The notes under the pieces: model-generated
Seen by the model: the letters and a program-made list of their open reading frames with translations, nothing else
Database searches by the model: none
What the model was told of the DNA's origin: nothing
From: Pseudomonadota bacterium
GTDB lineage: Bacteria; Bdellovibrionota_C; UBA2361; SZUA-149; DAOLCO01
Reading direction: 5' to 3'
NCBI GenBank assembly: GCA_027487795.1
Contig: JAIYCX010000012.1
Location: 1 to 64,000, forward strand
Length of the DNA stretch: 64,000 nucleotides
Translations under genes and position numbers: made by a program
Shown here: in pieces, positions 3,382 to 59,683 of the stretch
Layout of the letters: each line of letters starts with the position of its first letter
Position numbering within the stretch: the stretch's first letter is position 1

Positions 3382-4275
3382 ATGAAAGTCATCGCAAAAC
3401 ATATATCAATTATAGTTTCATTCTCTTTTTTATTGTCGATAATTTCTTGTGGCGGATCCTCATCCAATAAAGACGATAAGCAGTCGTTTTTATTTGTACA
3501 GAATTCACAAAAAGGTTCAATAACTCAAATCAGCGACGATTATTTTCACCTGAAACTAATTGACGTCGCCCCGATGACCCAGTATTTTAGCAACAGAAAT
3601 GAGAATGAGCAGCCGAGTGCTGGCACCATTCCAATGGACACCTTTATAGCATCATGGGACGACCCAAGCATTAAGGATAATTTCAAATCAGATCCACCTA
3701 ATGCTGCACTTGAAGTATACGACGAGAGTGGCAAATTATATTCTCTCGCACTTCAGTTAGAAGCTCCTATTTATACTTCAAATAAAAACAATCTGGAATA
3801 TAGAGTAAAAGTTATCGAACAATTCCCGGACAGTTATGTCGGGCAAATGAGCCTAATGTCTATTCCTCCAACTTTTTTAAACGCTTCGATATTCATAGAT
3901 AATGCGAGTACTGTAGCAACAAGTTTAAATTTTGATCGCGAGGATTGCACAAGTACATTAACGGAGAATATTCCGTATGGTGATCAGTTTTTTCTATTTT
4001 CTGATGCGGTTTCAGAAGCGGTTAGCTACTCGAACTCATGTAAGGTAGCACTTCCCACACAGGACTCTCGTGATGCAATGGCCAAATATCTTCAATCTAG
4101 CTTTCGAGCTCCCTACTCTTGCGGCAATCACTCAGTTTGTGGAAAAATTAATGTAGGTAATAATTTTTCAGATTGTTTGAGTAGTTGTCAAGGTTCTGGA
4201 TGTGATGTCACATACAATGGCGCTCCTTGCTGGTGTTCATATTGGTGCTTTGGAAGATTCGCTCCCTATCCATAG
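3382..4275 (+). CDS. Putative lipoprotein with cysteine-rich C-terminus
   Basis: 297 residues. The N-terminus MKVIAKHISIIVSFSFLLSI followed by ISC is a lipoprotein signal with the lipobox Cys near residue 23, so the mature protein should be lipid-anchored. The body has no family I recognise. The last roughly 60 residues hold nine or ten cysteines in closely spaced groups (CGNHSVCGK, CLSSCQGSGC, CWCSYWC), which suggests a disulfide-rich or metal-binding module. It is divergent from the FG-GAP gene, with about 225 bp between them. Function unknown; surface exposure is inferred only from the lipobox. Confidence 0.75.
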   Translation: MKVIAKHISIIVSFSFLLSIISCGGSSSNKDDKQSFLFVQNSQKGSITQISDDYFHLKLIDVAPMTQYFSNRNENEQPSAGTIPMDTFIASWDDPSIKDNFKSDPPNAALEVYDESGKLYSLALQLEAPIYTSNKNNLEYRVKVIEQFPDSYVGQMSLMSIPPTFLNASIFIDNASTVATSLNFDREDCTSTLTENIPYGDQFFLFSDAVSEAVSYSNSCKVALPTQDSRDAMAKYLQSSFRAPYSCGNHSVCGKINVGNNFSDCLSSCQGSGCDVTYNGAPCWCSYWCFGRFAPYP

Positions 4276-4312
4276 AGAAGAATCGGTACTACCTAGATTA
4301 CTATTCCTGAAC

Positions 4313-53516: not shown

Positions 53517-55047
53517 CGCTTTCGCCTTGCTATTACCCAAAAGTAAACGAGTAAAAAGCCCTGTTATATACAAAAAGATTGTGCGAGAGGAGCGAAAAAA
53601 GTATTCGTGGAGAAATCAAAGTAGAAGGATTTCAAGATGAAGAAAGAGTGCGACGGAGGATGGACAGAGAGCGAATTTAAAGGATTGGATTTAGGAGATA
53701 AGCGTCGAAATGCTCGCTTAAAATTAATAGCAGAGAAGAAAGGAGCACAACCAAATGCGACAATCAATCAGGCTCATCAATCTTGGTCAGATACCAAAAG
53801 CGCATACGAGCTATTTCGAAACGAATCAGTAACTCCAGAGAAGATATTGAAGCCACACATAGAGAGCACAAAGAGTAGAGCTCTAAAGGAAGAAGTGGTG
53901 CTAGCGATACAAGATACGACAGTAATTTCTTACCAAGGTCATGCGAAGACTAAAGACTTAGCAATAGTAAATAAGACAGGGAAAGGCTTGTTAATGCATA
54001 GTACCCTAATGGTTACGGAAGATGGAGTACCATTGGGATTAGGTAGTCAGAAGCTATATACGAGAGAGAACAAGGAAGAAAAAGATAATGCGCATCAGAG
54101 TAAGCCAATTATAGAAAAAGAGAGTTTTCGTTGGATAGAAGCATTAGATGTGATTAGTAAGCGTTTTGGGAACAGCTCTAGTAAGATAATAATGCTAGGA
54201 GATAGAGAAAACGACATATACGAGTTTATACAGTTATCAGCAGAGAAGGAAGTTGGTTATGTTATTCGTGGTAGTTATGATCGCATATTAGAAGACGGCG
54301 GGAAGATAAAAGAATCTGTATTATCAGAGCCAAGTCTTGGAAGTATTTCGATTGATATTCCTGCTAGAAGTGGAGAAAAGGCGGAAGTTTTACAACTTGA
54401 AGTATATTGTAAAACAATTACCTTATCGGCAGCGAGAAGAAGAGGAGGTTCAAAATGGATAAAGCTTGTTCCTCAGACAGTAACTGCAATTCTTGCGAAA
54501 GAAGCGGTTGTTGAAGAAGGCGAAGAGCCAAAAGAATGGATGCTATTAACAAATATTCAAGTTGATAATCTTAGTGATGCGCTAAAGTATATTCAATACT
54601 ATCAAAGACGTTGGCAAATTGAAATGTTTCATAAAACTCTCAAATCTGGGTGTGCAGTTGAAAAGTGTCGTTTAGAGACTGTTGAAAGATTATATAACTA
54701 TCTTACACTAACTAGTATAGTAGCTTGGAGAATTCTTTGGTGCACTCATATTGCTCGTAGTGATCCAAAAGCACCGGCTACTGATGCTTTTACTAAGGCA
54801 GAGATTGAAGTTCTTCAAATTAGAGAATCTCATAAACAAAACAAAGTTATTAAAATTAAAAATGTTCAACAAGCTATTAAGGCTATTGCTAAACTTGGTG
54901 GATTCCTTGCTCGGAGATGGGATGGTAATCCAGGGATAACTTATGTTTGGAGGGGATTTCAGGTACTAGATAACAGTCTCGATATGTTTTTTGCTATGAA
55001 CAAGAGTGACAACTTGCAGACTTTTGGGTAATAGCAAGGCGAAAGCG
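53517..55047 (+). mobile_element. IS4-family (IS50-like group) insertion sequence
   Basis: Terminal inverted repeats 53517-53544 and 55020-55047 are perfectly complementary over 28 bp (CGCTTTCGCCTTGCTATTAC at the left start). Element length is 1,531 bp with one transposase gene, whose stop lies within the right repeat. No clear target duplication beside the repeats. The outer sequence past the right end, GGGGATCCAGGAG, resembles half of a common REP-like palindrome. Confidence 0.85.
53637..55031 (+). CDS. IS4-family transposase, Tn5-like
   Basis: 464 residues. N-terminal EFKGLDLGDKRRNARLKLIA resembles the Tn5/IS50 transposase start. The DDE triad is visible: Asp in VLAIQDTTVISY, Asp in IIMLGDREND and Glu in the YREK signature Y-x2-R-x3-E-x6-K of YYQRRWQIEMFHKTLKSG. 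Full length with no frame break, so the element may still be active. It cuts and pastes its own element through the 28-bp ends. Located inside the block inserted after gpsA. Confidence 0.93.
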   Translation: MKKECDGGWTESEFKGLDLGDKRRNARLKLIAEKKGAQPNATINQAHQSWSDTKSAYELFRNESVTPEKILKPHIESTKSRALKEEVVLAIQDTTVISYQGHAKTKDLAIVNKTGKGLLMHSTLMVTEDGVPLGLGSQKLYTRENKEEKDNAHQSKPIIEKESFRWIEALDVISKRFGNSSSKIIMLGDRENDIYEFIQLSAEKEVGYVIRGSYDRILEDGGKIKESVLSEPSLGSISIDIPARSGEKAEVLQLEVYCKTITLSAARRRGGSKWIKLVPQTVTAILAKEAVVEEGEEPKEWMLLTNIQVDNLSDALKYIQYYQRRWQIEMFHKTLKSGCAVEKCRLETVERLYNYLTLTSIVAWRILWCTHIARSDPKAPATDAFTKAEIEVLQIRESHKQNKVIKIKNVQQAIKAIAKLGGFLARRWDGNPGITYVWRGFQVLDNSLDMFFAMNKSDNLQTFG

Positions 55048-55995: not shown

Positions 55996-56214
55996 CTAAT
56001 AGTGGCATGCAGCTTCTTTGGAGGCTAGCTCACCAGCTTCTTCCAAAAATAAAATAACTTGCTCGATCTTAACGGTAGGGAAACCATCAAGAAAATCATT
56101 AATAGTATCACCAGCTTTTAAATAATCCAATAAAGTATCGACAGGCACCCTTGTACCAAAAAAAACTGGGGTCCCACCCATGATCTCGGGATCAATTGTA
56201 ATTAATCTAGACAT
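55996..56214 (-). CDS. DUF433 protein (putative antitoxin)
   Basis: 72 residues. LITIDPEIMGGTPVFFGTRVPVDTLLDYL is the textbook DUF433 pattern (given here in part: the DPEIMGGTPVF and GTRVPV boxes), a small helix-turn-helix-like domain usually paired with a DUF5615 PIN-like toxin. The last residues (GELASKEAACHY) are atypical. The expected partner is not next to it; the nearest PIN gene at 56341 belongs to another pair. Orphan antitoxin or a remnant of a second module. Confidence 0.75.
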   Translation of the reverse strand: MSRLITIDPEIMGGTPVFFGTRVPVDTLLDYLKAGDTINDFLDGFPTVKIEQVILFLEEAGELASKEAACHY

Positions 56215-56340: not shown

Positions 56341-56730
56341 CTAAATTAATGGAATTTGTTCAAAATAATGAAAGTGCTTATCTCTAGTGCTTAAAGTTAA
56401 ATCATTTTGAACTACAACTGCTGCAATCCAAAGGTCATTTGTGGGTACTGGTTTACCGATCTTTTTTAGTTGAGAAAATAATCTTGCATAGTGGTGGGTT
56501 GTTTGTTCGTCAGCAAAGAGAACAGAAGTCCTATCAGAATTTAAAAATTTAGAGAGAGTTTTAATGTTTAGCTCTTGTTTTTTTCCACATAAGAAACCGG
56601 CACGTAGTTCAGCAAGCACAACAAACGGTATAAATATATGTTTTGCAGCGCGAACTTGAGAAACTATTTTTGGCTCTCCTTTGCAAAAATCAACATAACG
56701 ATTTGTGTCTATTGCAATTTTTAGCGCCAC
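56341..56730 (-). CDS. VapC-like PIN-domain toxin
   Basis: 129 residues. Acidic PIN residues: Asp in IAIDTNRYVDF, Glu in VVLAELRAGF, Asp in VPTNDLWIAAVV and the late Asp in LSTRDKHFHYF. VapC toxins cleave tRNA or rRNA sites. Overlaps the upstream antitoxin gene by 10 bp, a typical arrangement. All four acidic positions are present, so an active enzyme is expected. Confidence 0.85.
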   Translation of the reverse strand: MALKIAIDTNRYVDFCKGEPKIVSQVRAAKHIFIPFVVLAELRAGFLCGKKQELNIKTLSKFLNSDRTSVLFADEQTTHHYARLFSQLKKIGKPVPTNDLWIAAVVVQNDLTLSTRDKHFHYFEQIPLI

Positions 56731-56978
56731 AAATCTTTATCTATTTTTCTTTGATTATTTAATGCTTGCTCTACCTCAGGATCGTCAACCCAAGAATTAA
56801 TACAAAAATCCAAGTCACTATATGTGATCTCACTATTTCCACTAAGAGCTTCTTCCAATGTCTTGAGTGCTGCTCGATTTAGACTAAGATGCTCTTCTCT
56901 AGCACGTTTACGTAACAGCTGATCAAGCTCTGGGGGAACTGTTCTGATAGTATACTGGCTTATTTTATTCTTGGTCAT
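56721..56978 (-). CDS. VapB-like antitoxin (ribbon-helix-helix/FitA type)
   Basis: 85 residues. The N-terminal ISQYTIRTVPPELDQLLRKR looks like an RHH beta strand with helices (Arc/FitA type). The C-terminal half, with NSWVDDPEVEQAL, would wrap the toxin. Located directly upstream of and overlapping the PIN toxin gene. Short inverted GAATG/CATTC near 56980-57000 may be the operator. Confidence 0.78.
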   Translation of the reverse strand: MTKNKISQYTIRTVPPELDQLLRKRAREEHLSLNRAALKTLEEALSGNSEITYSDLDFCINSWVDDPEVEQALNNQRKIDKDLWR

Positions 56979-57036: not shown

Positions 57037-57963
57037 TTAATGAGGAAATTTAGTATCAACTTGTCTAAGTAAATTAACTTTTTCGGGCGAAAAAAAACCA
57101 AATACTGCTGTAAAGAGTTCTGTAGTTTTAATTTGAGCTTGTTCGTCGCGGTCAAAGTGGGATAACTTTTCGTCAATAATATAATCTGCTAAACCAAAGT
57201 ATTTAACAAACCGCTGTAAAAAGCGGATTCGAATTATCCACCCTATTTCTTCTTCAGGGGGTGTATTGAGTTTAAATTTAAGAGACTCGGAGCTGACTTC
57301 TTCCAAAGCAGTAGGAAAAGCCCGAATAAAAAGCTGAATAAAATTTTGTGCTGGAACTAATTCTGCCGCCTTTCTGTTAAGCAAATAAAGTAAGAATATT
57401 GAAGCCTTCTGAATAAGCGGGCATAGGGGAAAGCGATCGCTAAAAGACCAGTTATACTTCTTTATCCAATACTTAAGTAGTATTAGATAATCTGATGTTG
57501 TAAAACCTTTGTCAAAAATATGCTGACCTTTTTTAGTAAGGGAGAAGTATCCAGATTTTTTCTTCATCCAACCACAATCAGTAACGGCGTATCGGAGTGC
57601 AAGGACATCTAATGCATTTTCTTCAGTCTGTACGGTATGATTTTCCATTGGAGATTCATGAAGTATGTTCACTATCTTCTTAGGAAGATAACTGTTCTTA
57701 GTCGCCTTTGCTTTACCCAGATCTCCAAGAAACTTTATTAATAGTTTAGTTTTAGTGACAACTGGTGCCTGTTCTAAAAGCGTCGGATCAAACCCGTCGT
57801 TGAACCATATTATATTTTTTAATTCATCAAGAGGAAAATATAAAATTTGATGCATTTGATCTGGTGACAGACCAAGAAAATCATCAAGTGGCTGATAGTT
57901 CGCTAAAGATTCAAAGAACTCAATTTTATCTCGATCACGTTCTGCCATATGATTCGTATACAA
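57037..57963 (-). CDS. Hypothetical protein of a widespread uncharacterised family
   Basis: 308 residues (an in-frame ATG at 57948 gives 303). Soluble, helical. LGLSPDQMHQILYFPLDELK near residue 30 and the later 'K-A-T-K-N-S-Y-L-P-K-K' and GYFSLTKKGQHIF segments resemble proteins that begin with an 'LSPDQMHxLLYxPFD' block and hold a winged-helix-like central part. No function is known to me. It lies inside the inserted block, beside the VapBC-like pair, and reads away from the HipA gene. Confidence 0.6.
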   Translation of the reverse strand: MYTNHMAERDRDKIEFFESLANYQPLDDFLGLSPDQMHQILYFPLDELKNIIWFNDGFDPTLLEQAPVVTKTKLLIKFLGDLGKAKATKNSYLPKKIVNILHESPMENHTVQTEENALDVLALRYAVTDCGWMKKKSGYFSLTKKGQHIFDKGFTTSDYLILLKYWIKKYNWSFSDRFPLCPLIQKASIFLLYLLNRKAAELVPAQNFIQLFIRAFPTALEEVSSESLKFKLNTPPEEEIGWIIRIRFLQRFVKYFGLADYIIDEKLSHFDRDEQAQIKTTELFTAVFGFFSPEKVNLLRQVDTKFPH

Positions 57964-58303
57964 AATCCATTAATCAATAAGTTTCAAATAATCATCCGAC
58001 AATGAATAACGCAAATATTTGGGCTGAAATGGTATATACGCCTATTTATATTCTAATAGATTCTATTAATTTAACTCTAAATTAAACAATCAAGATTCAT
58101 GAATCTTTTAAGAAAGCTTAACAAACACCTTTTTCTATTCACTTTATTTGTAACTAGCTAATATTATTAAATATTATATTCTTAAATCTATTCATTATTC
58201 TAAGTATCAAGATAGTAATAGCTTAAGAACCATTCTCGCCTATCTATTCATTTTCATGTATAAGTTTCTAAAATTATTATTCTAAAATAAAATAAGTCTA
58301 TTC
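57964..58303. promoter_or_regulatory. 340-bp region before the HipA gene with spaced repeats
   Basis: TCTATTCA occurs at 58134-58141, 58187-58194, 58243-58250 and 58297-58304; intervals 53, 56 and 54 bp. The last copy overlaps the ATG. A perfect 16-bp palindrome AAGATTCATGAATCTT lies at 58092-58107. The regular spacing, near five helical turns, suggests cooperative binding of a regulator, probably the winged-helix HipA protein itself. Confidence 0.55.
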
Positions 58304-59683
58304 ATGAATCAAACTCTCAGAGATAGCCAAGTTCTGAAGTACTTATCTATCAATGGTCCACAATCAGGAAAAGAAGTTTGCAATAAAATAAAAATTTCAC
58401 AGGCCACATTTTCAAGATTAGTTAAGAAATTATCTAGTGAGATAGTTGTTATGGGTCGTGGTTCCACAACTATCTATGCAAAAAAAAGGGAGATAAAAGA
58501 GCTTGGTTCTGTCATTAATGTCTTAAAGATTACAGAAGAAAAATCAGCTGAACATGTTGCTGATCTAATACCCATTTTACCAAGAGGCTTCTATATAAAA
58601 TCTAAATCTTCAATTATCAAATCAAGACTATATGAAGACTTACCTTATTGGCTGCATGATCTTAGACCTAGTGGCTACCTAGGTAGGCTTATAGCAAAAA
58701 AATTTTCCAATTATCACTTTCCAGAAGATCCTAGAAACTGGTCTAACGATGATTGCCTTAGATACTGGTGCATATTTGGATCAGATCTAATAGGTAACTT
58801 GATTTTTAGTAGTGAAAAATTCGGCGGAAGAATTAGTCATATATTTGAAAATAATGATAATTCAAATTTTATATCAGAAGATCAAAGAGCGATTATGTAC
58901 CCGGTAATCGCACTTAACACTTTAAACTATGGACACGCAGGTTCCTCTGCCGCGGGAGAGGAACCTAAGTTTTTAGTTAAAAAAAAACTAGCCACAGATT
59001 CTCCCAATTCTAATCAATATGACTCATTAATAGTGAAATTTTCCTCTGCCAATGACGATGAATTAACAAAAAGAAAAAAAGAACTTTTAGTATGTGAACA
59101 TTTAGCTCTTAAAACATTATCCGATAATAAAATAAATTCAGCATACTCAGAACTATTTGAATTCGAAGGAAGATTATTTTTAGAAATACTAAGATTTGAT
59201 AGAGATAGAATAAATAGATTTGGACTTATTTCTCTCTTATCACTCGATATGGAATTTATAGGAAGCGGCTCTAATTGGGAGACAATAGCAAAATCTTTAA
59301 GAAATATGGGCAAAATTAGTAATTTACAATATCAAGAAATATTATTTAGATATTATTTCGGGATTCTAATTGGCAATACGGATATGCACTCTGGGAACCT
59401 ATCTTTTTTTGCCGATGGTGAGCAAATTATTGGATTAGCCCCAGTATATGACATGTTACCTATGGTTTTTGCGCCATTTAATAATGAAATAATTTCACCA
59501 AAAGATAAAATATACAGAATCTCAAAAAAAAATGTGCCTATTTTTAATAAGGCAGAAAAGATATCCAACTTATTTTGGGAGAATGTTTATAATCATAATA
59601 AAATCAGCGATGGATTAAAAGAAGATATAAAAATATGGAAAGAAAGTTATAAAATCGTAGAAGATCAAACGACCCTAGAATAA
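58304..59683 (+). CDS. HipA-family toxin kinase with N-terminal winged helix (YjjJ/HipH-like)
   Basis: 459 residues. The N-terminal 60 residues form a winged helix (YLSINGPQSGKEVCNKIKIS, then QATFSRLVKKL) as in E. coli YjjJ. The kinase core shows HAGSSAAGEEPKFL (Gly-rich/phosphorylation-loop region), VKFSS with the ATP Lys, LEILRFDRD and catalytic GNTDMHSGNLSF. The Mg-binding Asp is in LAPVYDMLPM. HipA kinases phosphorylate translation factors and stop growth; YjjJ types carry their own DNA-binding domain instead of a separate HipB. It is therefore likely to repress itself through the TCTATTCA repeats upstream. Confidence 0.85.
   Translation: MNQTLRDSQVLKYLSINGPQSGKEVCNKIKISQATFSRLVKKLSSEIVVMGRGSTTIYAKKREIKELGSVINVLKITEEKSAEHVADLIPILPRGFYIKSKSSIIKSRLYEDLPYWLHDLRPSGYLGRLIAKKFSNYHFPEDPRNWSNDDCLRYWCIFGSDLIGNLIFSSEKFGGRISHIFENNDNSNFISEDQRAIMYPVIALNTLNYGHAGSSAAGEEPKFLVKKKLATDSPNSNQYDSLIVKFSSANDDELTKRKKELLVCEHLALKTLSDNKINSAYSELFEFEGRLFLEILRFDRDRINRFGLISLLSLDMEFIGSGSNWETIAKSLRNMGKISNLQYQEILFRYYFGILIGNTDMHSGNLSFFADGEQIIGLAPVYDMLPMVFAPFNNEIISPKDKIYRISKKNVPIFNKAEKISNLFWENVYNHNKISDGLKEDIKIWKESYKIVEDQTTLE

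Follow-up and report, generated by a model that had tools for sequence, protein, structure and literature searches.

A conserved repeated word upstream of HipH/YjjJ-type kinase genes as their probable operator

The window analysed here, a 64,000-nucleotide stretch of contig JAIYCX010000012.1 (assembly GCA_027487795.1; GTDB group Bdellovibrionota_C), contains a gene for a HipA-like kinase of the HipH/YjjJ type, hereafter hipH, preceded by four exact copies of the word TCTATTCA. Comparison with orthologous loci indicates, with a probability that we place at roughly 0.82, that this word serves the HipH/YjjJ family as its operator, which the kinase would bind by its own winged helix and through which it would repress its own promoter. 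PMC8262856 gives the control of HipH/YjjJ, a growth-inhibiting kinase that has no antitoxin gene, as unknown (here and below, papers are cited from excerpts of their text). No operator for HipH/YjjJ was found described in the literature searched, the 2017 YjjJ study (PubMed 28430938) lying outside that coverage. HipB autoregulation of HipA-type kinases has long been known; what would be new, if true, is the combination of a kinase-fused reader, an operator of direct repeats with a 12-bp period and a further copy of the word inside the gene. Since the conserved word, with its 12-bp period and its variation with the recognition helix, occurs in laboratory E. coli, the proposal is directly testable at the bench, in a protein that a genome-wide assay had dismissed as a non-binder (PMC8464067).

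Repeats in the window and at orthologous loci

The features of the window on which the analysis turns are as follows.

58134..58141, + strand: candidate operator copy 1, TCTATTCA, at -170 from the ATG
58187..58194, + strand: candidate operator copy 2, TCTATTCA, at -117, with a degenerate 12-bp neighbour TATATTCT at 58175-58182
58243..58250, + strand: candidate operator copy 3, TCTATTCA, at -61
58297..58304, + strand: candidate operator copy 4, TCTATTCA, at -7, its final base being the A of the ATG at 58304
58092-58107, no strand: 16-bp palindrome AAGATTCATGAATCTT, which has ATTCATGAAT in common with copy 4
58304..59683, + strand: gene for the HipH/YjjJ-type HipA-like kinase, 459 aa (HipA_C, E 4e-24; best model match NF007297)
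58304..58486, + strand: coding region of the N-terminal winged helix, residues 1-61, from the predicted structure
58473..58480, + strand: TCTATGCA in the coding sequence, a possible intragenic site at +169, in a frame that differs from that of the relatives' +153/+165 site

The initial annotation of this DNA had described four exact TCTATTCA copies before the kinase gene, with gaps of 53, 56 and 54 bp and the fourth copy overlapping the start codon, and all of this was confirmed. Over the window as a whole the word is not enriched (7 copies vs 5.1 expected, a number reached by 24 of 100 shuffles); it is the sole 8-mer in the 64 kb with at least four copies inside 260 bp, counting one strand and at least three letter types. 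For four random points, gaps within 3 bp of one another have P ~0.001. When the whole genome from which the window derives was searched for TCTATTCA pairs 48-73 bp apart (start to start), with the word picked beforehand, all three matches lay at the hipH locus, and the reversed control gave 0. Words with one mismatch to TCTATTCA are also present at 58062 and 59009. Taken alone, the window is suggestive of an operator; it is the orthologues that settle the question. The 16-bp palindrome, also noted upstream of the repeats, is real; it says little by itself, however, because the window holds 10 perfect 16-bp palindromes, and it was rejected as an operator element.

The hipH orthologues were gathered by protein search and from annotated records, never by the DNA word. 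The genome-contig set comprised 46 loci, from which six partial matches (L041, L043-L045, L047, L049) were left out, and the plasmid set used 15 of 47 plasmid records with a protein match. Also dropped were L068 (wrong start), L065/L066 (near copies), L090/L093 (no N-terminal helix-turn-helix, HTH) and L096 (= L039); L060 shows the array and stays outside the counts, and the position used as the start of L034 probably lies 27 bp too far upstream. Removal of loci with at least half of their 4-mers common to a kept one reduced 72 loci to 58.

The commonest 8-mer upstream of hipH was TCTATTCA, present in 26 of 41 non-redundant loci (shuffles: mean 0.25, maximum 2 loci); all 43 of its copies in these upstream regions were in sense orientation, with none in antisense. 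In control pieces taken from these loci, it occurred in 11 of 1046 cases, again with 0 antisense, and most of these copies represent the intragenic site described below. When no motif was named, an 8-mer pair at a distance of 12 bp was detected in 35 of 58 loci, against a shuffle mean of 2.7 and maximum of 7; indeed, the relatives usually carry the copies head to tail, repeated every 12 bp. In E. coli K-12, the hipH copies lie at -100, -35, -23 and -11, so that a run of three ends 3 bp before the ATG and the fourth copy is 65 bp farther up. Overlap with the start codon like that of window copy 4 recurs in L003 of genome G014 (TCTATGC-ATG) and in L063 and L081 (TCGTTTC-ATG). A second sample, in which 398 genomes drawn evenly from one phylum yielded 21 genomes with 22 hipH matches, gave nine loci with exact TCTATTCA (one of them already in the first set), five with a variant word, four with no clear array and four that were uninformative (L090 and L093, with no N-terminal HTH; L091 and L094, fragments). 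Orthologues lacking such repeats had been named as one outcome that would overturn the proposal, and the word was present at many hipH loci.

The association with hipH is also seen from the side of the DNA. In 15 genomes (~65 Mb, E. coli K-12 not being included), all 13 matches to TCTATTCA-N4-TCTATTCA with 0-1 mismatch sit 24-108 bp upstream of a hipH start, and this confinement means that no global regulator is needed. The genome of the window had no such 12-bp tandem pair with 0-1 mismatch, and 9 at two mismatches vs 14 in the reversed control.

The gaps between clusters fall into classes of 53-56 bp (10 gaps, three of them supplied by the window), 63-67 bp (8) and 76-77 bp (3), plus 89 and 102, with no others in the range of 25-110. 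This periodicity has P < 0.001 against uniform or jittered gaps; the best period was 11.35, near the upper edge of the scanned 10.2-11.4, and R was 0.62-0.69 at 10.5. Such quantised gaps would be explained by whole helical turns, and also by loss or gain of one 11-12-bp unit. The classes near 54, 65 and 76 bp include that of the window, 54 bp; within clusters, most relatives carry 12-bp arrays. The suggestion that the four window copies are in phase on one DNA face failed at 10.5 bp/turn (R = 0.21, equalled by 84% of random placements), and strict one-face phasing was rejected. The copies align only at ~10.8-11 bp/turn, and with that choice allowed 13% of random sets match the alignment.

Covariation of the word with the recognition helix, and a copy inside the gene

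We classed a helix as standard if its recognition motif has Q in the second and T/S in the fourth position (SQPT, SQAT, SQPS, SQST). Exact TCTATTCA accompanied the standard helix in 33 of 42 loci, and a relaxed form, degenerate at positions 1 and 3, in 40 of 42. With other helices, the exact word was found in 0 of 15 loci and the relaxed one in 1 of 15 (L089); the Fisher value of 6e-8 ignores kinship and applies to classes drawn after inspection. Another word is present in 11 of the 15 loci with a non-standard helix, and the pairings of helix and word were as follows.

SRATLMR, with TCGTTTCA: L063, L079, L081
DRATLLR, with TCGTTGCA: L067
SQTVVAR or NQAAVSR, with TCTAGTCA or TCTAGT: L088, L089, L095
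SQPQFSR, with TCTATGCA/TCTACGCA: L003, from the window's own order
NRTTI[AI]R, with TGATGCA, or GATGCA twice: L028, L029
variant word TCTTCTCA/TCTTTGCA, assigned by eye: L059

That the word changes with the recognition helix is what chiefly points to the kinase itself as the binder. In a tree of the kinase domain, TCTATTCA extends across most clades and the variant words are nested; L064 is labelled there as TCTAGTCA through a chance word and carries TCTATTCA. The window groups with L003 and L005 in a single clade (100/98), although the long branch of the window (1.24) makes its placement less sure. As a separate observation, the hipH gene of Piscinibacter aquaticus (L050:2977-3819) has a recognition helix broken by a probable frameshift and a frame of 280 aa, and TCTATTCA and TCTATGCA persist upstream of it; having the word with a broken motif, it was placed in neither helix class.

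Many relatives also carry TC[TC]ATTCA within the gene, at +153 or +165, where the wing of the winged helix encodes S-I-Q or S-I-H. The codons TC[TC]-ATT were used in 18 of 18 non-redundant S-I-Q/H genes, where 1.3 were expected from their own codon usage, and TCT-ATT in 13 of 18, where 0.70 were expected (P 2e-17 under own codon usage, kinship ignored). Among 137 conserved columns of the 17 aligned genes, the two S-I codon columns of the wing take the top two places in their use of A/T-ending codons; in the remaining gene, L042, the peptide is at +186, outside the wing column of the others. Upstream and internal variants agree in part, namely as GCTATTCA in L026, L027 and L071, TCCATTCA in L020, L069 and L070, and TCTACGCA in L003; the agreement fails in L011, L013, L018, L023, L036 and L062. 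In the first locus set, the intragenic site was absent from E. coli and from loci with a non-standard helix, L003 excepted. The TCTATGCA of the window at 58473 is weak alone, as ~0.15 such one-mismatch words are expected per 250 bp and strand. If true, the copy inside the gene would offer a clear example of codon choice driven by DNA binding, in the very DNA-binding domain that would read those codons.

Proposed mechanism and rival explanations

At the level of sequence, it is established that the sites and their spacing are conserved, that they are tied to hipH, and that they change with the recognition helix; from this we infer that the kinase itself binds them, that it represses and does not activate, and that cooperativity or looping is involved. 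In the proposed mechanism, HipH would bind TCTATTCA via its N-terminal winged helix (SQATFSRL in both the window and E. coli), and the bound protein would repress its own promoter, so that the amount of a growth-inhibiting enzyme would be kept low with no separate HipB. Most relatives examined have their sites in the 12-bp head-to-tail array near the start codon; a good part of them have a second cluster ~54, 65 or 76 bp farther up, and one large branch has an extra site within the stretch that encodes the wing. In the window, the sites are single ones ~54 bp apart, the last lying over the start codon. The head-to-tail order suggests cooperative monomers, and the presence of two clusters suggests looping or flanking of the promoter. 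Of the initial proposal, the part that stands is that the repeats behave as a HipH/YjjJ operator, with the kinase's own winged helix-turn-helix (wHTH) as the best candidate binder on the grounds of conservation, of the joint change of helix and word, and of the predicted wHTH; its phasing, taken at 10.5 bp/turn, and its palindrome do not. A bolder version, in which HipH assembles head to tail on the 12-bp repeats and across clusters separated by whole turns, including the site in its own coding sequence, such that the DNA of the gene at once shuts off transcription and keeps hold of the toxic kinase in place of the missing antitoxin, is speculative and, in our view, rather unlikely.

Head-to-tail arrays of short repeats, spaced by about one helical turn, also occur in parC/ParR and in plasmid iterons, where they nucleate cooperative assemblies; the proteins and functions differ from those of HipH, and the likeness is one of resemblance only. 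Also close to the present case are the HipH/YjjJ kinases of clade X (Gerdes et al. 2021, PMC8262856), which are likewise monocistronic HipA-like kinases with an N-terminal HTH; in our tree, the window protein falls among orthologues. In that paper, however, the HTH only 'may function to bind DNA', and an operator of HipH is not given in the excerpt. In the HipBA systems of E. coli and Shewanella, a HipA-kinase gene is likewise autoregulated via promoter operators, but a separate HipB dimer binds palindromes (PMC8262856), whereas here the candidate reader is fused to the kinase. Solved HipBA complexes include 4yg7, 4pu3 and 4pu4. The palindromic operators of HipBA are not matched at hipH, where the repeats are asymmetric and direct, mostly of 12-bp period, with 71 exact class words in the 58 loci in sense orientation and 0 in antisense.

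Published work offers several independent hints. HipH was found at the nucleoid, its mutants without the HTH were non-toxic, and hipH expression responds to c-di-GMP via the hipH promoter (PMC11452175); Ser/Thr kinase activity and toxicity have been demonstrated for E. coli YjjJ (PMC9948734). Reg-Seq placed two repressor sites at E. coli yjjJ, one given to MarA and one unassigned (PMC7567609). A predicted E. coli yjjJ promoter has TCTATT as its -10 box (PMC3946193), so some copies of the word may overlap promoter elements.

Several observations weigh against the kinase as the reader of an operator of this kind. Chromatin immunoprecipitation with exonuclease treatment (ChIP-exo) of myc-tagged YjjJ in E. 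coli K-12 gave no binding site, and the authors, in the excerpt, class YjjJ as HTH-less (PMC8464067). Nine of the 42 standard-helix loci are without exact TCTATTCA, with L040 and L073 lacking even the relaxed word; L082, L086, L087 and L092 have no clear 12-bp array of class words (L082 has a ATTACGTAA pair), the single sites of the window depart from the 12-bp arrays of the family, and TCTATTCA copies occur elsewhere in the control pieces of L003, L031 and L042. No convincing promoter was found between the clusters in most loci, the best scores being mostly no better than those of shuffles. All 71 exact class words are sense-oriented, which DNA binding does not require and does not, on its own, account for. 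Finally, in two E. coli loci without hipH (L097 and L098, at deoD-lplA, 3940-4300), the array and its 65-bp spacing are kept, the intervening sequence having diverged; the array there either is a relic or has another user. In these two loci, hipH is replaced by an 87-aa HTH_3 gene in the opposite (convergent) direction, with an internal stop in strain C10. An HTH_3 gene was at the place of hipH in 14 of 20 sampled rows of matching E. coli genomes, of which two were opened. The 125-bp region upstream of E. coli hipH matches 4962 of 5426 genomes, with at least 80% covered in 1358 and under 80% in 3604, and in the O157 array one copy is altered to TCCATTCA.

The ChIP-exo result and the two hipH-less alleles would both be accounted for if the word were bound by another transcription factor that travels with hipH or predates it, HipH being only a target. 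We consider this unlikely, as hipH is found with the word in Pseudomonadota, Myxococcota, Thermodesulfobacteriota and the group of the window and with an altered form of it in Verrucomicrobiota, and as the word shifts with the recognition helix of HipH itself; moreover, tandem pairs with 0-1 mismatch were nowhere else in the 15 genomes searched, a set without E. coli K-12. The uniform sense orientation, together with copies that overlap or adjoin the start codon or lie within the coding sequence, would suit repeats that act in the mRNA, as a translational operator or a protein-binding leader, rather than in DNA. Such action is quite improbable, however, given that the distal clusters are ~75-120 bp upstream of the start codon, that a promoter-like TTGATM-17-TAGAAT lies downstream of them in L033, L035 and L037 (P 0.035, 0.19 and 0.23 vs shuffles), and that double-stranded DNA is what a 12-bp period and a wHTH suggest.

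Chance might also have clustered the four window copies, the DNA being AT-rich. That some 8-mer should occur four times in the 348-bp region is indeed not extremely rare: among 3000 sequences of each kind, this arose in 16 dinucleotide shuffles, 54 order-2 Markov sequences and 701 order-3 Markov sequences, the last from a model that over-fits as it was trained on the 348-bp region itself. Nonetheless, the word is identical to that at orthologues with the same helix, and the overlap with the start codon recurs in L003, L063 and L081, which makes chance very unlikely. Recognition of the word by HipH itself, for repression of its own gene, is the reading that we favor.

The window kinase, its neighbors and related loci

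The window kinase matches NF007297, an NCBIfam equivalog model, over nearly its full length with 378 bits and misses the cut-off of 401; hence, it is named here as HipH-type, a divergent relative rather than an equivalog. The G014 protein, from the same three-row clade, clears the model with 425.8 bits. The kinase core has the catalytic and Mg-binding motifs, with N358, D360, H362, N365 and D383 invariant in 54 alignment rows. An AlphaFold model had a mean predicted local distance difference test (pLDDT) score of 87.9, and its kinase body matches HipA structures; no solved structure matching the window kinase by sequence was found. The N-terminal winged helix ascribed earlier to the kinase polypeptide is borne out by this model, which predicts a wHTH with high pLDDT, comprising helices 3-17, 22-29 and 33-42 and strands 47-50 and 57-61. 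Helix 33-42 is the predicted recognition helix, and its motif, SQATFSRL, is identical in E. coli HipH. The N-terminus matches MarR_2 under the Pfam cut-off.

In the phylum of the window, hipH is present in 2 of 45 genomes. Its neighbors in the window are an alcohol dehydrogenase gene and a divergent open reading frame.

57037..57963, - strand: divergent open reading frame, 308 aa (start TTG 57963 or ATG 57948), no Pfam or NCBIfam match

This reading frame uses the intergenic region jointly with hipH and could be co-regulated. Farther out, a Tn5-type transposase gene is located at 53637-55031 (+), ~3 kb from the hipH operator, and a PIN-domain gene with a FitA/Arc-like antitoxin gene at 56341-56978 (-), near a DUF433 gene at 55996-56214.

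The protein of the window kinase had no match in phage records, and no plasmid DNA resembling its upstream region was found. Elsewhere, hipH was met on a 17-kb IMG/VR contig, possibly a prophage or a miscalled bacterial contig, with both the operator and the intragenic site (L002:1983-3383). On a Myxococcus plasmid (L068:295-2790), a HipA-domain gene is divergent from a separate winged-HTH gene and is perhaps a split or rearranged relative. On two further plasmids (L072 and L073, 1447-4086), the three annotated genes after hipH are the same, encoding a hypothetical protein, a DUF1817 protein and a site-specific integrase, which suggests a mobile unit.
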